Positions 26,357 to 36,197 of a stretch of 64,000 nucleotides of DNA are shown piece by piece. Numbering within the stretch: the stretch's first letter is position 1; every line of letters begins with the position of its first letter. Position numbers and translations under genes: made by a program. The notes under the pieces were generated by a model. The model did no database searches. It saw only the letters and a program-made list of their open reading frames with translations, and was not told the DNA's origin. The stretch is from Allocoleopsis franciscana PCC 7113 (lineage in GTDB: Bacteria; Cyanobacteriota; Cyanobacteriia; Cyanobacteriales; Coleofasciculaceae), in the NCBI RefSeq assembly GCF_000317515.1, contig NC_019738.1:595501-659500 (forward strand), written 5' to 3'.

Positions 26357-28867
26357 TTAGAGAGCCTCTGTTGCATCAATAGAGTTAGATACAGCGGTAA
26401 AATTCAAACTAGAATCAAAATCATCTGATTCAACATAAGTTGGTATTGCTTTCAAATCAGATTCTCCCACCACAGCTAGCTGATATCTGTTTAACAACAT
26501 TCCTTGCAAACAGCTATTGATTCCAGTAACGGCTTGATTATAATCAGCAATCTTCTGCTCAATTTCATCCTGCAACTTGAGATTCAACTTAATTTTTTCC
26601 TCTGCTTCTTTTTCCAAAGTTTGCTCTAAATAAGCACGTGCCTTGGGATATTGCTGCAAGATTGCTTCTGCCTGCTCATCAGCCATTGGCAATAGTAGCG
26701 TTTTGAGAGTTTGGTTAATTGTTTGGCGGAAACTTCGCCGGAGTGTTTGATCGATCTTTGGCTCGAAATCTAACTTGAGTAACTGCCGAATCGCGGGTTC
26801 GGCTTCAATCATGCTTTCCGCATCATAACCTTGAGACGTTTGCTGCAAAGTTTGCCGAAATTGATAGATTGAAAATGTGCCTTCATCGTAAAAACGAGGG
26901 CTTTCTCGTACAAAGCGATCGCACTCTGTTCTTGCCGCACTCACCAAAGCGTCCGAAACCCGCTTCTCTACCCCCTTTAGCTTTTGCTCAATCCCGCCAT
27001 CATTCCCCAGTAATCGATAAAGTTGACTGTAATAATCTGCACGGCGCACTCGCTCAATTAAGTATTGAAAAAAGCTAGATACTACCTGTTGTGAAGATTT
27101 CACCAAAACATCTTCTAGCTCATTAGCTAGAGAATAAAGTGCTTCTACTAACACAGCAATTAGAGGTGCTGTGGCGTTGCGAGGATGGCTGCGAGTCGCA
27201 CGACTGTAAGCTTCTGCGACTGAAAACTTGTGCAGCAATTCATCGAGGCGTTGAATCATGTCGGTTTGCAGTTGCCGAAAATCTGCCTCAAATGTGGGGC
27301 AAGCGTTATTCACTGCCAGATTCATCTCCTCATCAATGTGGCGGCAAAACTCTTTTCCAACTTGCTGAAGTTCCTGATTGAGGTATTCCAATTCCTTTGC
27401 TTTCATTGCCTCAATTTCGCGAGGTTGGCTGTCCAAATTCCGGTAAACACTCAGGTAGTGCTTCTTCAATCCAATGCACAAGGGTTGTAAATCATCAGCC
27501 AAATTCGCAAATAATTGAGGGCGCTTTTCTTCCATGAGATAGCGTGTGATTGCCGAACGAAACTCTTCAATGCCACTGTCTTGAATGAGCTGTTCAATTA
27601 GAGGCGTTCCTTGTTCCGTCAGAATGCGTACATAGTTTTCATTCGGTGTTTCATAACTATTGACGGAAATTCGGAAGCGACTAGGAGACAGCTTGCCAGA
27701 GTTGGCACAGTAGCGAAGAAACTCATTGACAAATTGTGGAGTATCTTCCCCTCCAACTGTGCCTTTGACACTGTCAGCAAAGATGGAATCTAAACCAAAG
27801 CGAAATTCATTGGGAACCGCTTCGCTAACGTCTCCAGTGGTTCCTTTAATCTGACTTCCATAAAAGCCAAGTAATCCGCTGGTTTTATAAACCCTGTCAG
27901 CAGGCGTATCTCGAAACTGGGTGCTAATTAAAGAATCCAATCGTTGCCGCAGTTGGCTGTTGTACCAGGTTTCATCAACGCGATTGAAAATATAAAAGAC
28001 ACGATCGCGGATTCCTGGATTCCCCCGCATCTTCTCGATTAGTTCCGTTTCTTCCGTCGTCATATCGCCAGCAGACGCGGGTTTGAGTACGCATACCACT
28101 GCCGAAGTCTCCGGTGCTTCAATTTTCCGATACGTCAGTTCCGCATCTCTCTGCACTGGCGCATCAATCCCCGGTGTATCAATCAGGACGTTGCCATCTT
28201 GCAATAGGGGATGATGGCAGTAATACTCAATTCGCTTCAGAACCGCACTATTACTACCGCGACGAGCATATCCAGCCGCTTCTAGGAGATTTGAGAAGTG
28301 GAACTGCTCCATGGAGTAGGTGGCATTGTTCAGGGTGTTGATGCGATCGCGATTCTCGATAAACCCTCCCAGCAACAAATCTAGCGCCTTTGCCTGCTTT
28401 GCCCTCTCTGACTTACTCTCTCCGCCTTCCTGCTGGAGAACCAGAACACATCCCTGGCGTAGTAAATCAATCGCTTCCGGTTGATTGATATTAGCCGCCG
28501 CTAATCCCAATCGCTGACACAACGCCACCACCTGTTCCCGAATCTCCGCTTCGCTCAAAAACGTCAGCACTACTCGTTCTCGATCCGGTTCGGCATGGGC
28601 GATGTAACATTCCGTTCCCGTCGCATGTCCCTCCGCACTGTAGAGCAATTCTCGTTCTAGCAGCGCATTAATCAGCATCGATTTCCCTGCACTAAACGCA
28701 CCGGCAAAGACAATCTCGAAGGTGGGTGCGATCGCCTTTCGCAAAGAAGCCTGAACCGCCGTCACATCCTCTGGCAACGCTCGTAGAGATGGCTCTTGAT
28801 GCAATAGCTCTAATAAACGTTCTACCTGTTCTTGCAGATTCTGGCACTGAGGGAGTATTGGCGTCAT
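26357..28867 (-). CDS. Bacterial dynamin-like GTPase
   Basis: 836 aa. The GTPase domain is N-terminal (about 45-350): G1 AGAFSAGKSMLINALL, G2 region TGTECYI, G3 DTPGIDAP and G4 NRVD. Long helical segments follow (about 440-790) with coiled-coil character, as expected for the neck and stalk of bacterial dynamin-like proteins. No strong transmembrane pair is visible, so membrane contact would be through a paddle or a partner. Relatives remodel membranes or protect them under stress or phage attack, and cyanobacterial examples include Nostoc BDLP. It is a single gene with short repeats on both sides. Confidence 0.9.
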   Translation of the reverse strand: MTPILPQCQNLQEQVERLLELLHQEPSLRALPEDVTAVQASLRKAIAPTFEIVFAGAFSAGKSMLINALLERELLYSAEGHATGTECYIAHAEPDRERVVLTFLSEAEIREQVVALCQRLGLAAANINQPEAIDLLRQGCVLVLQQEGGESKSERAKQAKALDLLLGGFIENRDRINTLNNATYSMEQFHFSNLLEAAGYARRGSNSAVLKRIEYYCHHPLLQDGNVLIDTPGIDAPVQRDAELTYRKIEAPETSAVVCVLKPASAGDMTTEETELIEKMRGNPGIRDRVFYIFNRVDETWYNSQLRQRLDSLISTQFRDTPADRVYKTSGLLGFYGSQIKGTTGDVSEAVPNEFRFGLDSIFADSVKGTVGGEDTPQFVNEFLRYCANSGKLSPSRFRISVNSYETPNENYVRILTEQGTPLIEQLIQDSGIEEFRSAITRYLMEEKRPQLFANLADDLQPLCIGLKKHYLSVYRNLDSQPREIEAMKAKELEYLNQELQQVGKEFCRHIDEEMNLAVNNACPTFEADFRQLQTDMIQRLDELLHKFSVAEAYSRATRSHPRNATAPLIAVLVEALYSLANELEDVLVKSSQQVVSSFFQYLIERVRRADYYSQLYRLLGNDGGIEQKLKGVEKRVSDALVSAARTECDRFVRESPRFYDEGTFSIYQFRQTLQQTSQGYDAESMIEAEPAIRQLLKLDFEPKIDQTLRRSFRQTINQTLKTLLLPMADEQAEAILQQYPKARAYLEQTLEKEAEEKIKLNLKLQDEIEQKIADYNQAVTGINSCLQGMLLNRYQLAVVGESDLKAIPTYVESDDFDSSLNFTAVSNSIDATEAL

Positions 28868-28980
28868 GGTAGTAGATATCTCAAATCAATGAGTCTTTAG
28901 GCTGATCTTAGTGTTGTCATTATGTGAGGAACACCGTAGAATCCACAAAATCTAAGTCCTGTACTCAACAGGTTCTACCA

Positions 28981-29085
28981 CAGGACTTACGCATTTTCTG
29001 GGTTAATACACCATCTTCCTAGGGGCTAAGGCATTGCCTTAGCCTCTATCTGTAGCGGATAGGGTAGCCAGTTGCATAAGTCCTG
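28981..29085. mobile_element. MITE-like element with AGGACTTACGCA ends
   Basis: CAGGACTTACGCA (28981-28993) and TGCATAAGTCCTG (29073-29085) are inverted repeats with one mismatch. The interior has a small palindrome (CTAAGGCATTGCCTTAG, 29026-29042). A third copy of the end sequence, TAAGTCCTGTACT, sits just to the left at about 28952. AGGACTTACGCA ends are frequent in cyanobacterial genomes. No coding capacity. Confidence 0.65.
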
Positions 29086-30789: not shown

Positions 30790-31149
30790 CTACTGCTGGT
30801 GGTGTTTTGCAGAAGTTAAAACTGACAATCTTTGCTCGAAGATGGCATCAAGGCGGGAAAACGCTTCTTCTGTATATCGCTGAGATTCCTGAATAATGCT
30901 TTTCCAAAGGGCATTGAGAGCTTGCAGATTTGGGCAGAAGCGTATCAAGGTACTACAAGCCGCAATCCACTGTTCAAGTTTACGGTAACTGATAAAGTAG
31001 CCACCGAGTCCCTGAATATGCACCCAGAGGACGTTATGCCATTTTGCCCAGTTCAGAATGCGTTCTTGCTGGATTTTCAGGTGTTTGGCGATTTGCCGGA
31101 GGGTGATTACAAAAGTTTTAGGGTTGATGCGATGACGTAGCTGTTGCAT
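30790..31149 (-). CDS. Hypothetical small basic protein
   Basis: 119 aa beginning MQQLRHRINPKTFVITLRQI. It is rich in Lys, Arg, His, Gln and aromatic residues, with predicted helices throughout; RQIAKHLKIQQERILNWAKWHN resembles a helix-turn-helix or MerR-like excisionase arrangement, and GGYFISYRKLEQWIAACS fits the wing and next helix. No clear ribosome-binding site was found, so the start is uncertain. A plasmid- or island-type accessory protein is likely given its neighbours; I do not recognise the family. Confidence 0.5.
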   Translation of the reverse strand: MQQLRHRINPKTFVITLRQIAKHLKIQQERILNWAKWHNVLWVHIQGLGGYFISYRKLEQWIAACSTLIRFCPNLQALNALWKSIIQESQRYTEEAFSRLDAIFEQRLSVLTSAKHHQQ

Positions 31150-31282
31150 GACTTTTAGGAAAGAAGAACCCTTCTCCAGGCTTCGTGAGCAACACCAGAG
31201 GGAGCTAGAGTATTTTTACTGCCCCTGGTGTTGGGGACTATAGAGAGCTTTGGCTGTAGCTAACTGAGTCGATTTGCCAGAA

Positions 31283-31501
31283 TTAACTCAGCACCTGGGT
31301 TTGATGCTCCTCTTCTTTGTCATTGGGAAGGTCAAAGATAATCTCAAACTGAGCGTTTGGGATGAACCGATGCAACAGTCGTTTGTGGTCGTGGGCGTCT
31401 TGGCGGTTGCGGAAACGGGCAACGATGATGGTTCGTGCGTTTGGCAAAAGACGCGCAATTGCCCAAGGGCGATCATTAGGATTGCTTAAAAGTTTTACCA
31501 T
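31283..31501 (-). CDS. Hypothetical small protein (72 aa)
   Basis: Starts at ATG 31501 with a good GGAG ribosome-binding site about 10 nt upstream. The sequence contains RPWAIARLLPNARTIIVARFRNRQDAHDHKRLL, a beta-alpha-beta pattern, followed by FEIIFDLPNDKEEE. This looks like a small ferredoxin-like or RRM-like fold made of one unit; I know of no named family. It is divergent from the RHH gene, and a G/C-rich hairpin (CCCCTGGTGTTGGGG) at about 31222-31236 lies downstream. Confidence 0.55.
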   Translation of the reverse strand: MVKLLSNPNDRPWAIARLLPNARTIIVARFRNRQDAHDHKRLLHRFIPNAQFEIIFDLPNDKEEEHQTQVLS

Positions 31502-31584
31502 TAGTAGAGTCTCCTTGTATTAGGGAGCCAAAGCCAGCGTCTGCTTTAGGAAGGTAGGGCGCTGGCTTTAACTGTTTTTTATTG

Positions 31585-31639
31585 TAGCAAAATAGCAATA
31601 AAGCACAATAGCAATATAAAACTAAAAAATTTATAGCAA
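31585..31639. promoter_or_regulatory. TAGCAA direct repeats upstream of the RHH gene (candidate operator/iterons)
   Basis: TAGCAA occurs at 31585, 31593, 31609 and 31634, in direct orientation, with start-to-start steps of 8, 16 and 25 bases (near multiples of 8). The stretch is AT-rich and lies between two divergent small genes, the right one encoding a ribbon-helix-helix protein. RHH dimers commonly bind short direct repeats in their own promoter, so an autoregulatory operator is the simplest reading; iterons of an integrated replicon are the alternative. Confidence 0.55.
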
Positions 31640-31676
31640 TGAGAAAATGGAAGCGAGCCTTTATGAGCTGTAGTCT

Positions 31677-31862
31677 GTGTCGGAAGCTGAGAACCCAGTA
31701 TTTGTTAGAGGGCGCGTTCCCGAATCCGTGAGAGCACGATTTAAGGCAACGTGTGCCTTAGAGGGACGCGATATGAGCGATGTGTTGAAGGAACTGATTG
31801 AGAAGTGGTTGGAAGAACACGAAAACCCCTCACCCGGTGGTAAGAAGGGTAAGGGGGATTAA
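31677..31862 (+). CDS. Small ribbon-helix-helix (CopG/ParG-like) DNA-binding protein
   Basis: 61 aa from GTG 31677. The core VFVRGRVPESVRARFKATCALEGRDMSDVLKELIEKWLEEH has the strand-helix-helix pattern of RHH proteins: a short basic strand, then two amphipathic helices. The C-terminus is Gly/Lys-rich and flexible. RHH proteins of this kind regulate plasmid partition or antitoxin genes; no toxin gene is adjacent on this strand. The TAGCAA repeats just upstream are its likely operator. It converges with the radical-SAM gene, 22 bases away. Confidence 0.75.
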   Translation: MSEAENPVFVRGRVPESVRARFKATCALEGRDMSDVLKELIEKWLEEHENPSPGGKKGKGD

Positions 31863-31884
31863 AGGCGATCGCGACAAAGAAGCC

Positions 31885-32910
31885 TTAGCGAATGGAAGCA
31901 GTAGTTCTCTTTGAGTTTTTACGAGTAGCCTGAGTAGCCTTAGCTTTAGTCTGTGTGGCTGTCAGGTAGTCCCACTTTTCTACTGTTGGGGTATATAACC
32001 ATTTGTCTAACTTAGCTTCATCCACATATCCTCTTAGTTCAGGATCGGGCCAAATATGAAGCCGCTCCAAACATCCTATGTCTTTTGCTGCGGCTTCAAT
32101 ATCCTCCCACTGTCTTTTAAACGTTTCTGCCCAGGATTGTTTGCTCATAATGGAACTGGTAAATTCTAATCCTGCTGCTAGCATCCGTTTTCCATTAGTT
32201 CCACGAGCATTGATGGGTTCCCAAAAGATTACCTCTGGATTAATACGCATTAATTTCTCCAGATACCTTTTGAAGTGATCTAAAGTCATGGTAGGAGGTG
32301 TAGGAGCCATAGCAACATACAACCGACACCCAGCTTGATGCCCTTCCTGCAAAGCTTTATAGCGTTCAGTCGGCGGAGGTGATTGAGGTTCAATTTTGCG
32401 GCTGAGGTCATCATCTAGGTATGGCAGACTCATGCCAACAATTACGTTGTCACACTTGAGAACATCAATATCATTTACCCACAATAGACCACGAGTTAGA
32501 ATTCTGACTCTTTTGTTATATTTCAAGAGAACCTGAACAGCGCTACGGGTCACAGTTGCTGTCTGTTTGTTTTGGTACGGATCTGTGCCAGAACAGAGTA
32601 AAACTACTCCTCTACCTGCATCTGTTTCACGCCAAGATTTCTTACGACTTAAAACTTTTTCTAGTTTCTCAGGAATATCTTCACGAACAAAGAGATATTG
32701 TCCCCAATCCATCTGAGGATTGCTTACTCCTTTTTCCCGTAACTGTGCTTGTTTTGTGCGAATTGCTGGAGTTGAAGGTACATAACAGAAAGTACAACCA
32801 TGTAGGCAGCCTGATGCTACATTAACCACATAGTCACATAAACCTTTTTTATTAAGAGCGCTCTCTTGGAGAGGATTAACAATTTTTTCGGTGCCTTTTA
32901 TAATGGTCAT
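31885..32910 (-). CDS. Radical SAM protein of the SPL-like group, paired with TcmP
   Basis: 341 aa. The iron-sulfur motif GCLHGCTFCYVPSTPA (CxxxCxxC) lies at about residues 35-42 of the N-terminus; further features are VLLCSGTDPYQNKQTATVTR, RILTRGLLWVNDIDVL and MAPTPPTM, giving the TIM-barrel order of SPL-like (COG1533) radical SAM enzymes. The C-terminus is Lys/Thr-rich and flexible. The substrate is unknown. It is divergent from a TcmP gene, the family named as partner of three-Cys-motif proteins. Together with its AT-rich surroundings this suggests a horizontally acquired two-gene module. Confidence 0.85.
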   Translation of the reverse strand: MTIIKGTEKIVNPLQESALNKKGLCDYVVNVASGCLHGCTFCYVPSTPAIRTKQAQLREKGVSNPQMDWGQYLFVREDIPEKLEKVLSRKKSWRETDAGRGVVLLCSGTDPYQNKQTATVTRSAVQVLLKYNKRVRILTRGLLWVNDIDVLKCDNVIVGMSLPYLDDDLSRKIEPQSPPPTERYKALQEGHQAGCRLYVAMAPTPPTMTLDHFKRYLEKLMRINPEVIFWEPINARGTNGKRMLAAGLEFTSSIMSKQSWAETFKRQWEDIEAAAKDIGCLERLHIWPDPELRGYVDEAKLDKWLYTPTVEKWDYLTATQTKAKATQATRKNSKRTTASIR

Positions 32911-33056
32911 GTGTAGATTGATTTTGCTTTCTAAGCTAACTAGTTAAATATTAAGCGCGAAAAATAATTATATCATTTATCCTTAAGAACATAGATTGAT
33001 TTTAGATAAGAATATACTCTTGTTAACTTTATATTTCATTTTGATGAAAGAGGAAA
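32911..33056. promoter_or_regulatory. AT-rich divergent promoter region of the radical-SAM/TcmP pair
   Basis: 146 bases, strongly AT-rich, between two divergent starts. It must hold both promoters. AAGAGGAAAATG directly precedes the TcmP start (GAGG as ribosome-binding site). Confidence 0.5.
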
Positions 33057-33929
33057 ATGATTCAACAATCCTTTGGTGGTGATTGGACGGAAGAAAAGTT
33101 AAATCGAGTTCGGAAATATTTGGTTGCTTACTCAACAATTATGAGTAAATATAAATTCCGCTATGCGTACATCGATGCTTTTGCTGGTACGGGATATAGA
33201 GAGCTTAAGGAAGATGACGAGGCAAGTACATTGATGCTACCTGAACTTGTAGATCAAGAATCAAAAAAACTATTTGATGGCTCTGCACGCATTGCACTTC
33301 AGACAAAACCGAGATTTACTAAATATATTTTTATTGAAAAAGATGAGAGTAAGATTGCTGAGCTCAATAAACTTAAAGCCGAGTTTACTACTCTAGCTGA
33401 TGACATCACTATAATTCAGTCAGATGCAAATATGTACATAAACGAATTATGTGCCAAAAATTGGAAAACTAATCGTGCTGTACTTTTCTTAGATCCTTTT
33501 GGAATGCAAGTACCCTGGTCAACAATTACCTCAATTGCCAGAACTGAAGCTATTGACCTATGGTATCTATTTCCAATTGGTATAGCAGTTAATAGATTAC
33601 TCAAAAAAGATGGCAACATAAAACCTTCAATCAGAAGAAGGTTGGATGAAGTTTTTGGTACACCAGAGTGGTATGAAACTTTTTATTCCATCAGAACAGA
33701 GAAAGACTTATTTGGAAATTATTCATTCCCTGAGAAAACAGCTAATTTTCAAGTAATTGCAAACTATTTTGTTGAACGTTTAAAGTCAGTGTTTGAAGGT
33801 GTTGCAGAAAACCCTCTTTTGCTAGTTAATTCGCAAAATAGTCCTTTGTACTTACTTTGCTTTGCTTCAGCTAATAAAAAAGGTGCTCCAACAGCAATCA
33901 AGATTGCACAACATATCTTGAAAAAGTGA
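33057..33929 (+). CDS. tcmP: Three-Cys-motif partner protein TcmP
   Basis: 290 aa from ATG 33057, preceded by AGAGG. The start FGGDWTEEKLNRVRKYLVAY, the glycine motif YIDAFAGTGYRE (a methyltransferase-like nucleotide loop), FIEKDESKIAELN, and FLDPFGMQVPWSTI are the hallmarks of TcmP (recalled family name, TIGR04474). The overall shape, AFAGTG then an acidic residue at the end of strand 2 (IEKDE) and DPFG in place of a DPPY-like motif, suggests a methyltransferase fold with changed catalysis. Family members sit beside a Cys-motif radical-SAM-like protein in islands. Biological function unknown. The gene is more AT-rich than its surroundings. Confidence 0.88.
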   Translation: MIQQSFGGDWTEEKLNRVRKYLVAYSTIMSKYKFRYAYIDAFAGTGYRELKEDDEASTLMLPELVDQESKKLFDGSARIALQTKPRFTKYIFIEKDESKIAELNKLKAEFTTLADDITIIQSDANMYINELCAKNWKTNRAVLFLDPFGMQVPWSTITSIARTEAIDLWYLFPIGIAVNRLLKKDGNIKPSIRRRLDEVFGTPEWYETFYSIRTEKDLFGNYSFPEKTANFQVIANYFVERLKSVFEGVAENPLLLVNSQNSPLYLLCFASANKKGAPTAIKIAQHILKK

Positions 33930-34255
33930 AGAATAAAGATGTTACTTGGTGTGAGATACTGTGACTCTTTCAGATAAAGAGTAAAATTACTTACGCACTT
34001 GAGAATGACTAATATGCGATCGCCCCTATATTCATAGACTAGCCCTATGCTGCATATCGGATAATTTCAACTTCCGCGCCCTTACTGACAGCCATCTCAG
34101 CCCTTTCGAGAACTTGCTCAGTAATGGCATCACTCAAATAATACTCCCCGCAATTATCACAAACTTCGGCGGGAACTCGCTTAATAATCACAATACTCTC
34201 GTCCCGTTCTAGAGTCACAGTGACTAAACCAGGCTGCGTTTCTCCATGCTTACAA

Positions 34256-36037
34256 CCCACATTCCGCCCTTTGACTGTCACAAGTAGATAATTTAGTGGA
34301 GGCAATCGAGGCAAACGCAACGTAAGTGGAGTTAAAGATAGCCTAGCCAGCTTTTTGGCCGAAACAGGATAATTGAACGGGAGTGGAAGGGCTAAGTCTT
34401 GGGGAGGGGGTGTGAAAGCAGCAGAAATGCAGGTAATGAACCTCGACCACTTGGGTCTGGTGGCAGGTATTATTGACGAAATCGGGCTGGTGGAACAAAT
34501 AGACCTGCGGTTGGGGCAAGACAGCCGAGAAAAAGTCAGTGCAGGTCTTGTGGTCAAAGCAATGATTCTCAACGGACTGGGCTTTGTGTCAGCCCCACTG
34601 TACTTATTTAGTCGATTTTTTGAAGGGAAAGCTACAGAACACCTGATTGGAACCGGAGTCAAGCCAGAACATCTCAATGATGACCGCCTGGGACGAGTGC
34701 TTGATGAACTGTTCCTGGCAGGACTAACCCGTTGCTTCGTCAGCATTGCCATGAAAGCTATCGCCAAGTTTGGAGTGAGTATTGAGACAGCGCACTTAGA
34801 CTCGACCTCATTTCATCTGCATGGCGAGTATGAAACAGCCAATGACGAAGTGGTAGTCACTCAAAAGACAGAAGATGGCACAAGAGTAGAAATTGAGGTA
34901 GCGCCGAAAGCGATTCACCTAACGTATGGATATTCTCGTGACCATAGAAGTGACCTCAAACAATTCGTGATGAATCTGATATGTGGTGGAGAGGGTGGTA
35001 TACCGTTATTTTTAGAGATGGCAGATGGCAATCAAGACGACAAGACAAAGTTTGCCCATCTGTTTGAGGAGTTTCAGAAACAGTGGACTTTTGAGGGAAT
35101 ACACATAGCAGATAGTGCTTTGTACACTGCCGACAACCTCAAGCGGATGAAGCAGTTGAAATATCACACCCTAGAAGCAGTAGAAATCATTGAGCAAGAC
35201 CATTACTCCCAACCGGGAAGACCAGCAAAGCAAACTCGACCCACTCACAAAACCTATCACATTCAAGCCACATTGGTAGTCAATGAAACTGTCCTAGAAC
35301 AACAAAGACAGCAAGCGGGACGATTCATTCTCGCCACCAATGTCCTAGACAAGGAACAATTGAATAATGATGCAGTCCTGAGTGAGTACAAAGAGCAGCA
35401 GAGTACGGAACGGGGCTTTAGCTTTCTCAAAGACCCTCTGTTTTTTGCTGATAGTGTTTTCCTGAAAGACCCAGGTCGCATTGCTGCTGTAGGGATGGTT
35501 ATGGGATTGTGTCTGTTGGTCTACAACTTGGGACAGGCAGCTTTACGTCAAGCCTTAGTTCAAGCTGATGAAAGCCTCCCTAATCAATTAAAAAGCCGAC
35601 TCAGCGTCCCACCCTCCGCTGGATATTTCAGTGTTTCCAAGCGGTGCATTTGTTAGTGATTGATGGGGTTGAGCAAATTGCCAATCTTACCGATGAACGC
35701 TTAAAGATTTTGCGCTTTTTCTCTCAAGCTTGCCGGGACTACTATCTATTGTGCTGAGTTCTTCAAGTCATTGAAATACTTCAACAATTATTTCAGCAAA
35801 GTGATGCGTAGACGAGCTTTTTAGTTAACGCATCAGGCTTTTCCTGATAGGAAACAGTTCACTTTATGTTGCCAGTTACTTGACTTTTTATTGCTACTTG
35901 CTGCTTTTTGAGAACAAGCACCCGAAAAAAGTTAGCATCTCTCATCTCTAGAACGTTTCACTCGATTGAACTGGCCTGTGTTAGCCTTCAGTTCCACACA
36001 ATTATCCGCTTGTGACAGTCAAAGGGCGGAATGTGGG
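34256..36037. mobile_element. IS1634-like insertion sequence with ~35-bp inverted repeats and TTACAA target duplication
   Basis: The left end CCCACATTCCGCCCTTTGAC (from 34256) is repeated inverted at the right end as GTCAAAGGGCGGAATGTGGG (to 36037). The match runs about 36 bases with two mismatches. The element is flanked by TTACAA at 34250-34255 and 36038-36043. About 1782 bp in all. It carries one transposase gene, rightward, and about 280 bp of noncoding DNA after it. The near-perfect ends indicate a recent insertion. Confidence 0.9.
34412..35757 (+). pseudogene. IS1634-family transposase, frameshifted
   Basis: GTG 34412 with GGAGG just upstream opens MKAAEMQVMNLDHLGLVAGI, the usual N-terminus (DUF4277-like) of IS1634-type DDE transposases. 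Family residues include AHLDSTSFHLHGEYE (first Asp), PLFLEMADGNQDDKTKF (second Asp) and YKEQQSTERGFSFLKDP (Glu). The frame then ends early with SVPPSAGYFSVSKRCIC. In the -1 frame from the A-run at 35590-35594 the expected ending PTQRPTLRWIFQCFQAVHLL continues to a stop at 35757. One lost A (A6 to A5) explains this, so the element is probably not autonomous unless ribosomes slip there. Confidence 0.85.
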
Positions 36038-36057
36038 TTACAAATTACACATCTCAT

Positions 36058-36197
36058 AGTTCTATCTCCGAGTTCTAAAATCAGATGTCACCGATCCCGT
36101 AGTAGAATTTAATAAACCACAGATGCACAGAGGACACTGCGGTAAGAGCAAGAGAGAGTTATACATTTGAATGCAACTTGGTATCAGTCCCGTTAAT
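36058..36197. other. Region upstream of the split antitoxin
   Basis: The TAAACCACAGATGCACAGAGGACAC string (36113-36137) resembles a repeat that is widespread in cyanobacterial genomes. CGGAGATAG next to the ATG at 36057 would be the antitoxin's ribosome-binding site. No toxin gene was found here. Confidence 0.4.

Follow-up and report, generated by a model that had tools for sequence, protein, structure and literature searches.

A mobile radical SAM/TcmP gene pair of cyanobacteria and haloarchaea with exchange of TcmP beside a constant radical SAM gene

What are two genes that start back to back, one coding for a radical SAM protein (rSAM) resembling spore photoproduct lyase (SPL) and the other for a protein of the TcmP family, doing together in the genome of Allocoleopsis franciscana PCC 7113? 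We have analyzed the stretch of 64,000 nucleotides in which they lie (hereafter the window). An earlier note had proposed that they are a divergent two-gene module within an acquired, defence-type island, and the coordinates, spacing and motifs of both genes were found as it gave them (Table 1).

The locus and its mobile surroundings

Among the 36 long ORFs of the window those of rSAM and TcmP have the lowest GC content (34.9 and 42.0%, the median being 48.9%), in agreement with the AT-rich DNA described before. The neighbors that had been named, a split antitoxin, an IS and an RHH gene, were all recovered, as a YgiT/MqsA-type gene, an IS1634 element and a RHH/ParG-like gene. In the sister species the genes flanking the pair's segment are 93–95% identical on both sides, and a different insert of 1.6 kb replaces the 5.3-kb segment of the window. 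The view of this DNA as acquired is borne out by this variable segment and its GC content. Besides, copies of the pair are found on conjugative cyanobacterial plasmids and on haloarchaeal plasmids, so that its context is strongly that of a mobile element.

Table 1. Positions of the pair and its neighbors in the window, and of insert-bearing rSAM genes in other loci
Feature	Position	Strand	Remarks
SPL-like radical SAM (rSAM) gene	31885..32910	-	341 aa; motif GCLHGCTFCY; PF04055 match, SPL-like predicted fold
TcmP gene	33057..33929	+	290 aa; AFAGTG, IEKDE, DPFG; TIGR04474 E=1.9e-65, PADLOC PDC-M41A 1.1e-121
Divergent AT-rich intergenic region	32911..33056		146 bp; presumed site of both promoters
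Strain-variable segment containing the rSAM/TcmP pair	30877..36192		sister-species flank comparison
IS1634-family element inside the YgiT/MqsA-type antitoxin gene	34254..36039	+	in variable segment, outside module
YgiT/MqsA-type antitoxin gene, interrupted by the IS1634 element	34045..34335	-	family profile match
IS1634 transposase	34373-35656		family profile match
IS1634 element inverted repeats	34254-34300 and 35993-36039
RHH/ParG-like gene	31677-31862		family profile match
rSAM loci with intein-like insert	L099:3115-5121, L100:3929-5905, L102:4831-6816, L103:4849-6822

Elsewhere in the window, at 26357-28867, there is a gene for a dynamin-like GTPase with a weak PADLOC match to LeoA (7.8e-11). 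Its homologue in the sister species is found on another contig, the break being located at an interspersed repeat of ~100 bp near 28980-29085.

Linkage of the two genes and their distribution

When 84,980 prokaryote genomes were scanned using a profile of the rSAM, 61 loci were retrieved, from cyanobacteria and haloarchaea. A TcmP homologue immediately adjoined the rSAM gene in 59 of them, the two exceptions being divergent copies from Symploca. As a less biased test, each gene was searched separately in the same 292 cyanobacterial genomes, where TcmP was present in 45 and rSAM in 11. All of the rSAM carriers fell among the TcmP carriers (chance ~4e-10), and the two genes were adjacent in every case, even in the one genome where both are left only as broken fragments. 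Hence, rSAM and TcmP are a genuine, near-obligate two-gene module as had been proposed, the opposite expectation that they rarely occur together failing in both searches. Their orientation is codirectional (34), divergent (27) or convergent (6). The divergent layout, correctly described for the window, is only one of several found in its relatives, and with gene order varying in this way the linkage is not merely that of a shared operon. Many haloarchaea (loci L105-L119) have one TcmP with two rSAM paralogues. We found no recurring neighbor gene around the rSAM/TcmP pairs, and a third component of the module was rejected on this basis.

Near-obligate adjacency in any orientation, together with a patchy mobile distribution, would also be expected from a pair of the addiction or toxin-antitoxin kind, in which TcmP harms host nucleic acid and rSAM reverses or blocks the harm, keeping the genes together. 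The partner swaps described below would fit as well. However, these are large genes, often divergent or convergent and therefore not co-transcribed, and one fixed rSAM would need to neutralise very different TcmPs (~20–25% identical), so that we consider an addiction pair very unlikely.

A radical-SAM-type gene adjoined TcmP at all 47 matches in the 292 cyanobacterial genomes, and it was the rSAM in 11 and DUF5131 in 36. The name three-Cys-motif partner is right as to the TcmP family but points to another partner, since the usual neighbor of TIGR04474 is DUF5131. None was found in the genome containing the window, and DUF5131 as a hidden partner there was rejected. On viral contigs, TcmP is accompanied by DUF5131 in 30 of 31, the remaining contig ending at the gene, and the same form is present in two isolated phages, of Synechococcus and Gordonia. 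In the latter, BaxterFox (L122:5963-6988), an unannotated DUF5131 ORF of 342 aa lies on the strand opposite to the adjoining TcmP (gp42), in a region where other small genes have been annotated instead.

The presence of TcmP in viruses, nearly always with DUF5131, and the plasmid copies of the pair could mean that phages and plasmids protect themselves from restriction by the host through marks on their nucleic acid, the copies in hosts being domesticated remnants. Against this stand the absence of the rSAM form from the viral contigs searched and the purifying selection acting on the chromosomal rSAM (dN/dS ~0.08–0.17). We regard such self-modification as unlikely.

The two proteins and the exchange of TcmP

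The rSAM of the window belongs to the radical SAM superfamily, as indicated by the Pfam profile search (PF04055, E=1.2e-9, above the cut-off) and by a CX3CX2C motif (C35/C39/C42, all three invariant in the family) within a predicted barrel. It scored far under the cut-off of every named NCBIfam rSAM subfamily. The best model, PA0069, gave 92.9 vs. a cut-off of 360 bits and Rv2578c gave 62.5 vs. 430 bits, i.e., the protein belongs to neither of these equivalogs. With the best score so far under its cut-off, profile comparison places the rSAM in an unnamed clade, sister to the named NCBIfam rSAMs. The structural model (pLDDT 82.8) has its nearest fold in SPL, with Z 17.8 over 257 residues vs. 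15.7 for the second family, the likeness including the surroundings of CX3CX2C, and SPL is also the top sequence-profile match (E=0.0012). An extra cysteine, C25, is found in all readable members (LCDYVVN in the window, LC[DN][YH]V[IV]N in the family). Another, C106 (LLCSGTD), is a candidate equivalent of the SPL hydrogen-donor C140 (4fhc); it is invariant in the cyanobacterial members and Ser in the haloarchaeal members shown. When rSAM and DUF5131 were compared by hhalign the probability was only 67%, the match being centered on the Cys motif.

Some other members have peculiar architectures. In Okeania, Microcoleaceae and Lyngbya an intein-like insert of ~340 aa with two LAGLIDADG-type motifs is located exactly between rSAM F41 and C42 (GCTF|CLAPETL...ATHN|CYVP). 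Some rSAMs of the haloarchaeal loci L105-L119 have an additional Cys-rich N-terminal segment (CxxC...CxxC). A viral rSAM, ORF301 of Acidianus two-tailed virus (L123:3869-4774), is 31% identical to that of the window and has no TcmP nearby.

With SPL as the nearest fold, the pair might be devoted to damage repair, an SPL-like lyase repairing UV lesions in DNA or RNA and TcmP acting in the recognition of the lesion; SplB-type COG1533 genes are in fact SOS-regulated in other bacteria (PMC8565304). However, a gene found in so few of the cyanobacterial genomes (11/292), with a partner that is swapped and a sister form carried by phages, is ill-suited to a housekeeping repair role, and we find this explanation very improbable.

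TcmP of the window matches TIGR04474 along model positions 1–260 of 263 (221.4 bits, the cut-off being 53) and is a member of this family. Its model (pLDDT 82) has a class-I methyltransferase fold with RlmJ (Z 14.8) and Trm1 (Z 14.7) as the nearest structures. Both methylate RNA at exocyclic nitrogens of its bases, RlmJ producing m6A2030 in 23S rRNA and Trm1 m2,2G26 in tRNA. The methyltransferase fold that had been proposed is thus upheld by the predicted structure, but not the altered active motif proposed with it. The protein has the features of N-methyltransferases of the Trm1/RlmJ type, i.e., the class-I fold, motif I (YIDAFAGTG) and a motif IV (LFLDPFG) that is paralleled by those of haloarchaeal Trm1 (VVDIDPFGTP and VVDVDPYGSP), the motif IV of RlmJ being DPPY (PMC3814359). 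A dead motif in the window TcmP is ruled out, DPFG being the motif IV of Trm1. By hhalign TcmP and Trm1 are weakly related (E 0.35), yet motifs I and IV are paired, so that the link with Trm1 rests on fold and motif.

The situation is different in the TcmPs of the class that we designate T2 (see below) and in several haloarchaeal ones, which adjoin the same rSAM and have lost DPxG, keeping only the Asp (YSDENG, FVDNQ). They fall outside the Trm1/RlmJ-type pattern, and it is to them that the dead-motif reading may apply. Methyl transfer by TcmP cannot then be universal, and, to judge by these motifs, catalysis by all TcmPs is doubtful.

We have found three classes of TcmP beside rSAM, a long one (T0, n=30), the short one of the window (T1, n=6) and another short one (T2, n=6), with seven or more changes of class along the rSAM tree. 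In the AU test a single rSAM clade for the partners of T1 was rejected (p=0.04) but not for those of T2 (p=0.19), and for this reason the case for exchange rests mainly on the comparison of the flanks of L099 and L102. These loci are 87% identical in the upstream gene and also in the rSAM and the downstream DNA. From the upstream stop codon to the rSAM start codon there is a codirectional long TcmP in one and a divergent short TcmP in the other, i.e., TcmP has been replaced and inverted between flanks that are 87% identical. A conserved block confined to approximately the rSAM gene is also seen in Pseudanabaena. Between the window and the sister species the rSAMs share 93% identity and the TcmPs, that of the sister being long, only 25%. 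The constancy of rSAM and the swapping of TcmP, with rSAMs up to 93% identical next to unrelated TcmP types, is a new observation. These natural swaps are ready-made experiments separating the role of each protein, through which the functions of TcmP and DUF5131 become directly testable.

Defence context, proposed function and known systems

A minority of the relatives do adjoin defence genes. In the Nostoc plasmid pC052_C the same divergent pair with a short TcmP is next to BrxA, BrxL and PglZ (BREX), with DarT near; PsyrT lies beside the pair in L064, and L078 has a complete PD-T4-4 (A+B). In the literature, TcmP of S. meliloti (SMa2243) has the defence gene hna (SMa2245) in its vicinity (PMC12445080), and COG4422 (gp37 family) is enriched in sponge symbionts alongside restriction-modification genes (PMC5649159). 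The PADLOC families matched numbered 150 in 25 rSAM loci, 31 in 20 random regions and 17 in 20 DUF5131 loci, these family counts being redundant and the strong ones driven by a few loci. Defence families are thus no commoner around DUF5131-TcmP than in random regions, and in a Pfam view the neighbors of the 25 rSAM loci are mostly ordinary genes. The defence-type island of the earlier note holds for that minority; the window pair itself has an IS and remnants of TA type as neighbors, not defence genes, and most relatives lie among ordinary chromosomal genes. The association with defence is suggestive.

The exchange of specificity subunits (HsdS) occurs in type I restriction-modification systems. 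The swapping of TcmP beside an unchanged rSAM is similar to it, and it is mainly on this account that we favor a modification module rather than a repair or an addiction pair. The pair would be a self-contained and horizontally mobile module of nucleic-acid modification, likely serving in the conflict between hosts and mobile elements, a proposal that is in our judgement an even call. The rSAM would be the constant chemical part, an SPL-like enzyme forming a radical on the base or the sugar of a nucleic acid. The exchangeable and probably target-determining part would be TcmP, either a SAM-dependent methyltransferase of RlmJ/Trm1 type or a base-binding protein that selects the target, in most members probably acting on an exocyclic base nitrogen. 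We infer that both would act on one nucleic acid, with an antiviral benefit. RlmJ and Trm1 act on RNA and SPL on DNA, and, the likeness of the modeled folds being no proof of substrate, this nucleic acid may be either DNA or RNA. On chromosomes and plasmids the module would most likely be defence, the related TcmP and DUF5131 form being on phages. By analogy, one could think of a modular system of immunity or of defence against parasites, following the logic of HsdS, where an SPL-like enzyme that stays constant would use radical chemistry to place a nucleic-acid modification at targets chosen by interchangeable TcmPs, with DUF5131 as the alternative radical partner in phages; we see this as possible but rather doubtful. 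If true, a mobile cassette of an rSAM and a methyltransferase-like protein would represent an uncharacterised route to nucleic-acid modification.

We found no functional study of TcmP, of DUF5131 or of the rSAM/TcmP pair in the literature. The closest systems described are PDC-M41 and PDC-M30, candidate defence systems of PADLOC composed of TcmP (A) and DUF5131/Gp37-Gp68 (B). TcmP of the window reaches 404 bits against PDC-M41A, and a long TcmP matches PDC-M30A. In contrast, the B component is replaced in the window by the SPL-like rSAM, which has no PADLOC match below E=0.1, in a genome devoid of DUF5131, and the pair belongs to neither system as defined. Judging from these matches it is an unlisted variant of the PADLOC TcmP candidate systems, missed by PADLOC because the rSAM is not modeled there, and plausibly it works like them.

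The resemblance to characterized enzymes is more distant. The rSAM has the same barrel and the same placement of CX3CX2C as SPL (SplB), PA0069 and Rv2578c, but identity is only 12%, and it differs also in the extra invariant C25 before the motif and in having TcmP as neighbor. RlmJ and Trm1 are the nearest solved folds to TcmP, and Trm1 shares its DPFG motif IV, but identity is 11% and they are single housekeeping enzymes with no rSAM partner. Finally, there is the Radical SAM mobile pair A/B (TIGR04471/TIGR04470), by its name two rSAM proteins with no TcmP. Although all the scores are far under the cut-offs, DUF5131 is similar to pair A (2e-22) and rSAM to pair B (7.5e-11), so that the two alternative partners of TcmP resemble the two halves of a mobile pair already named by NCBI.
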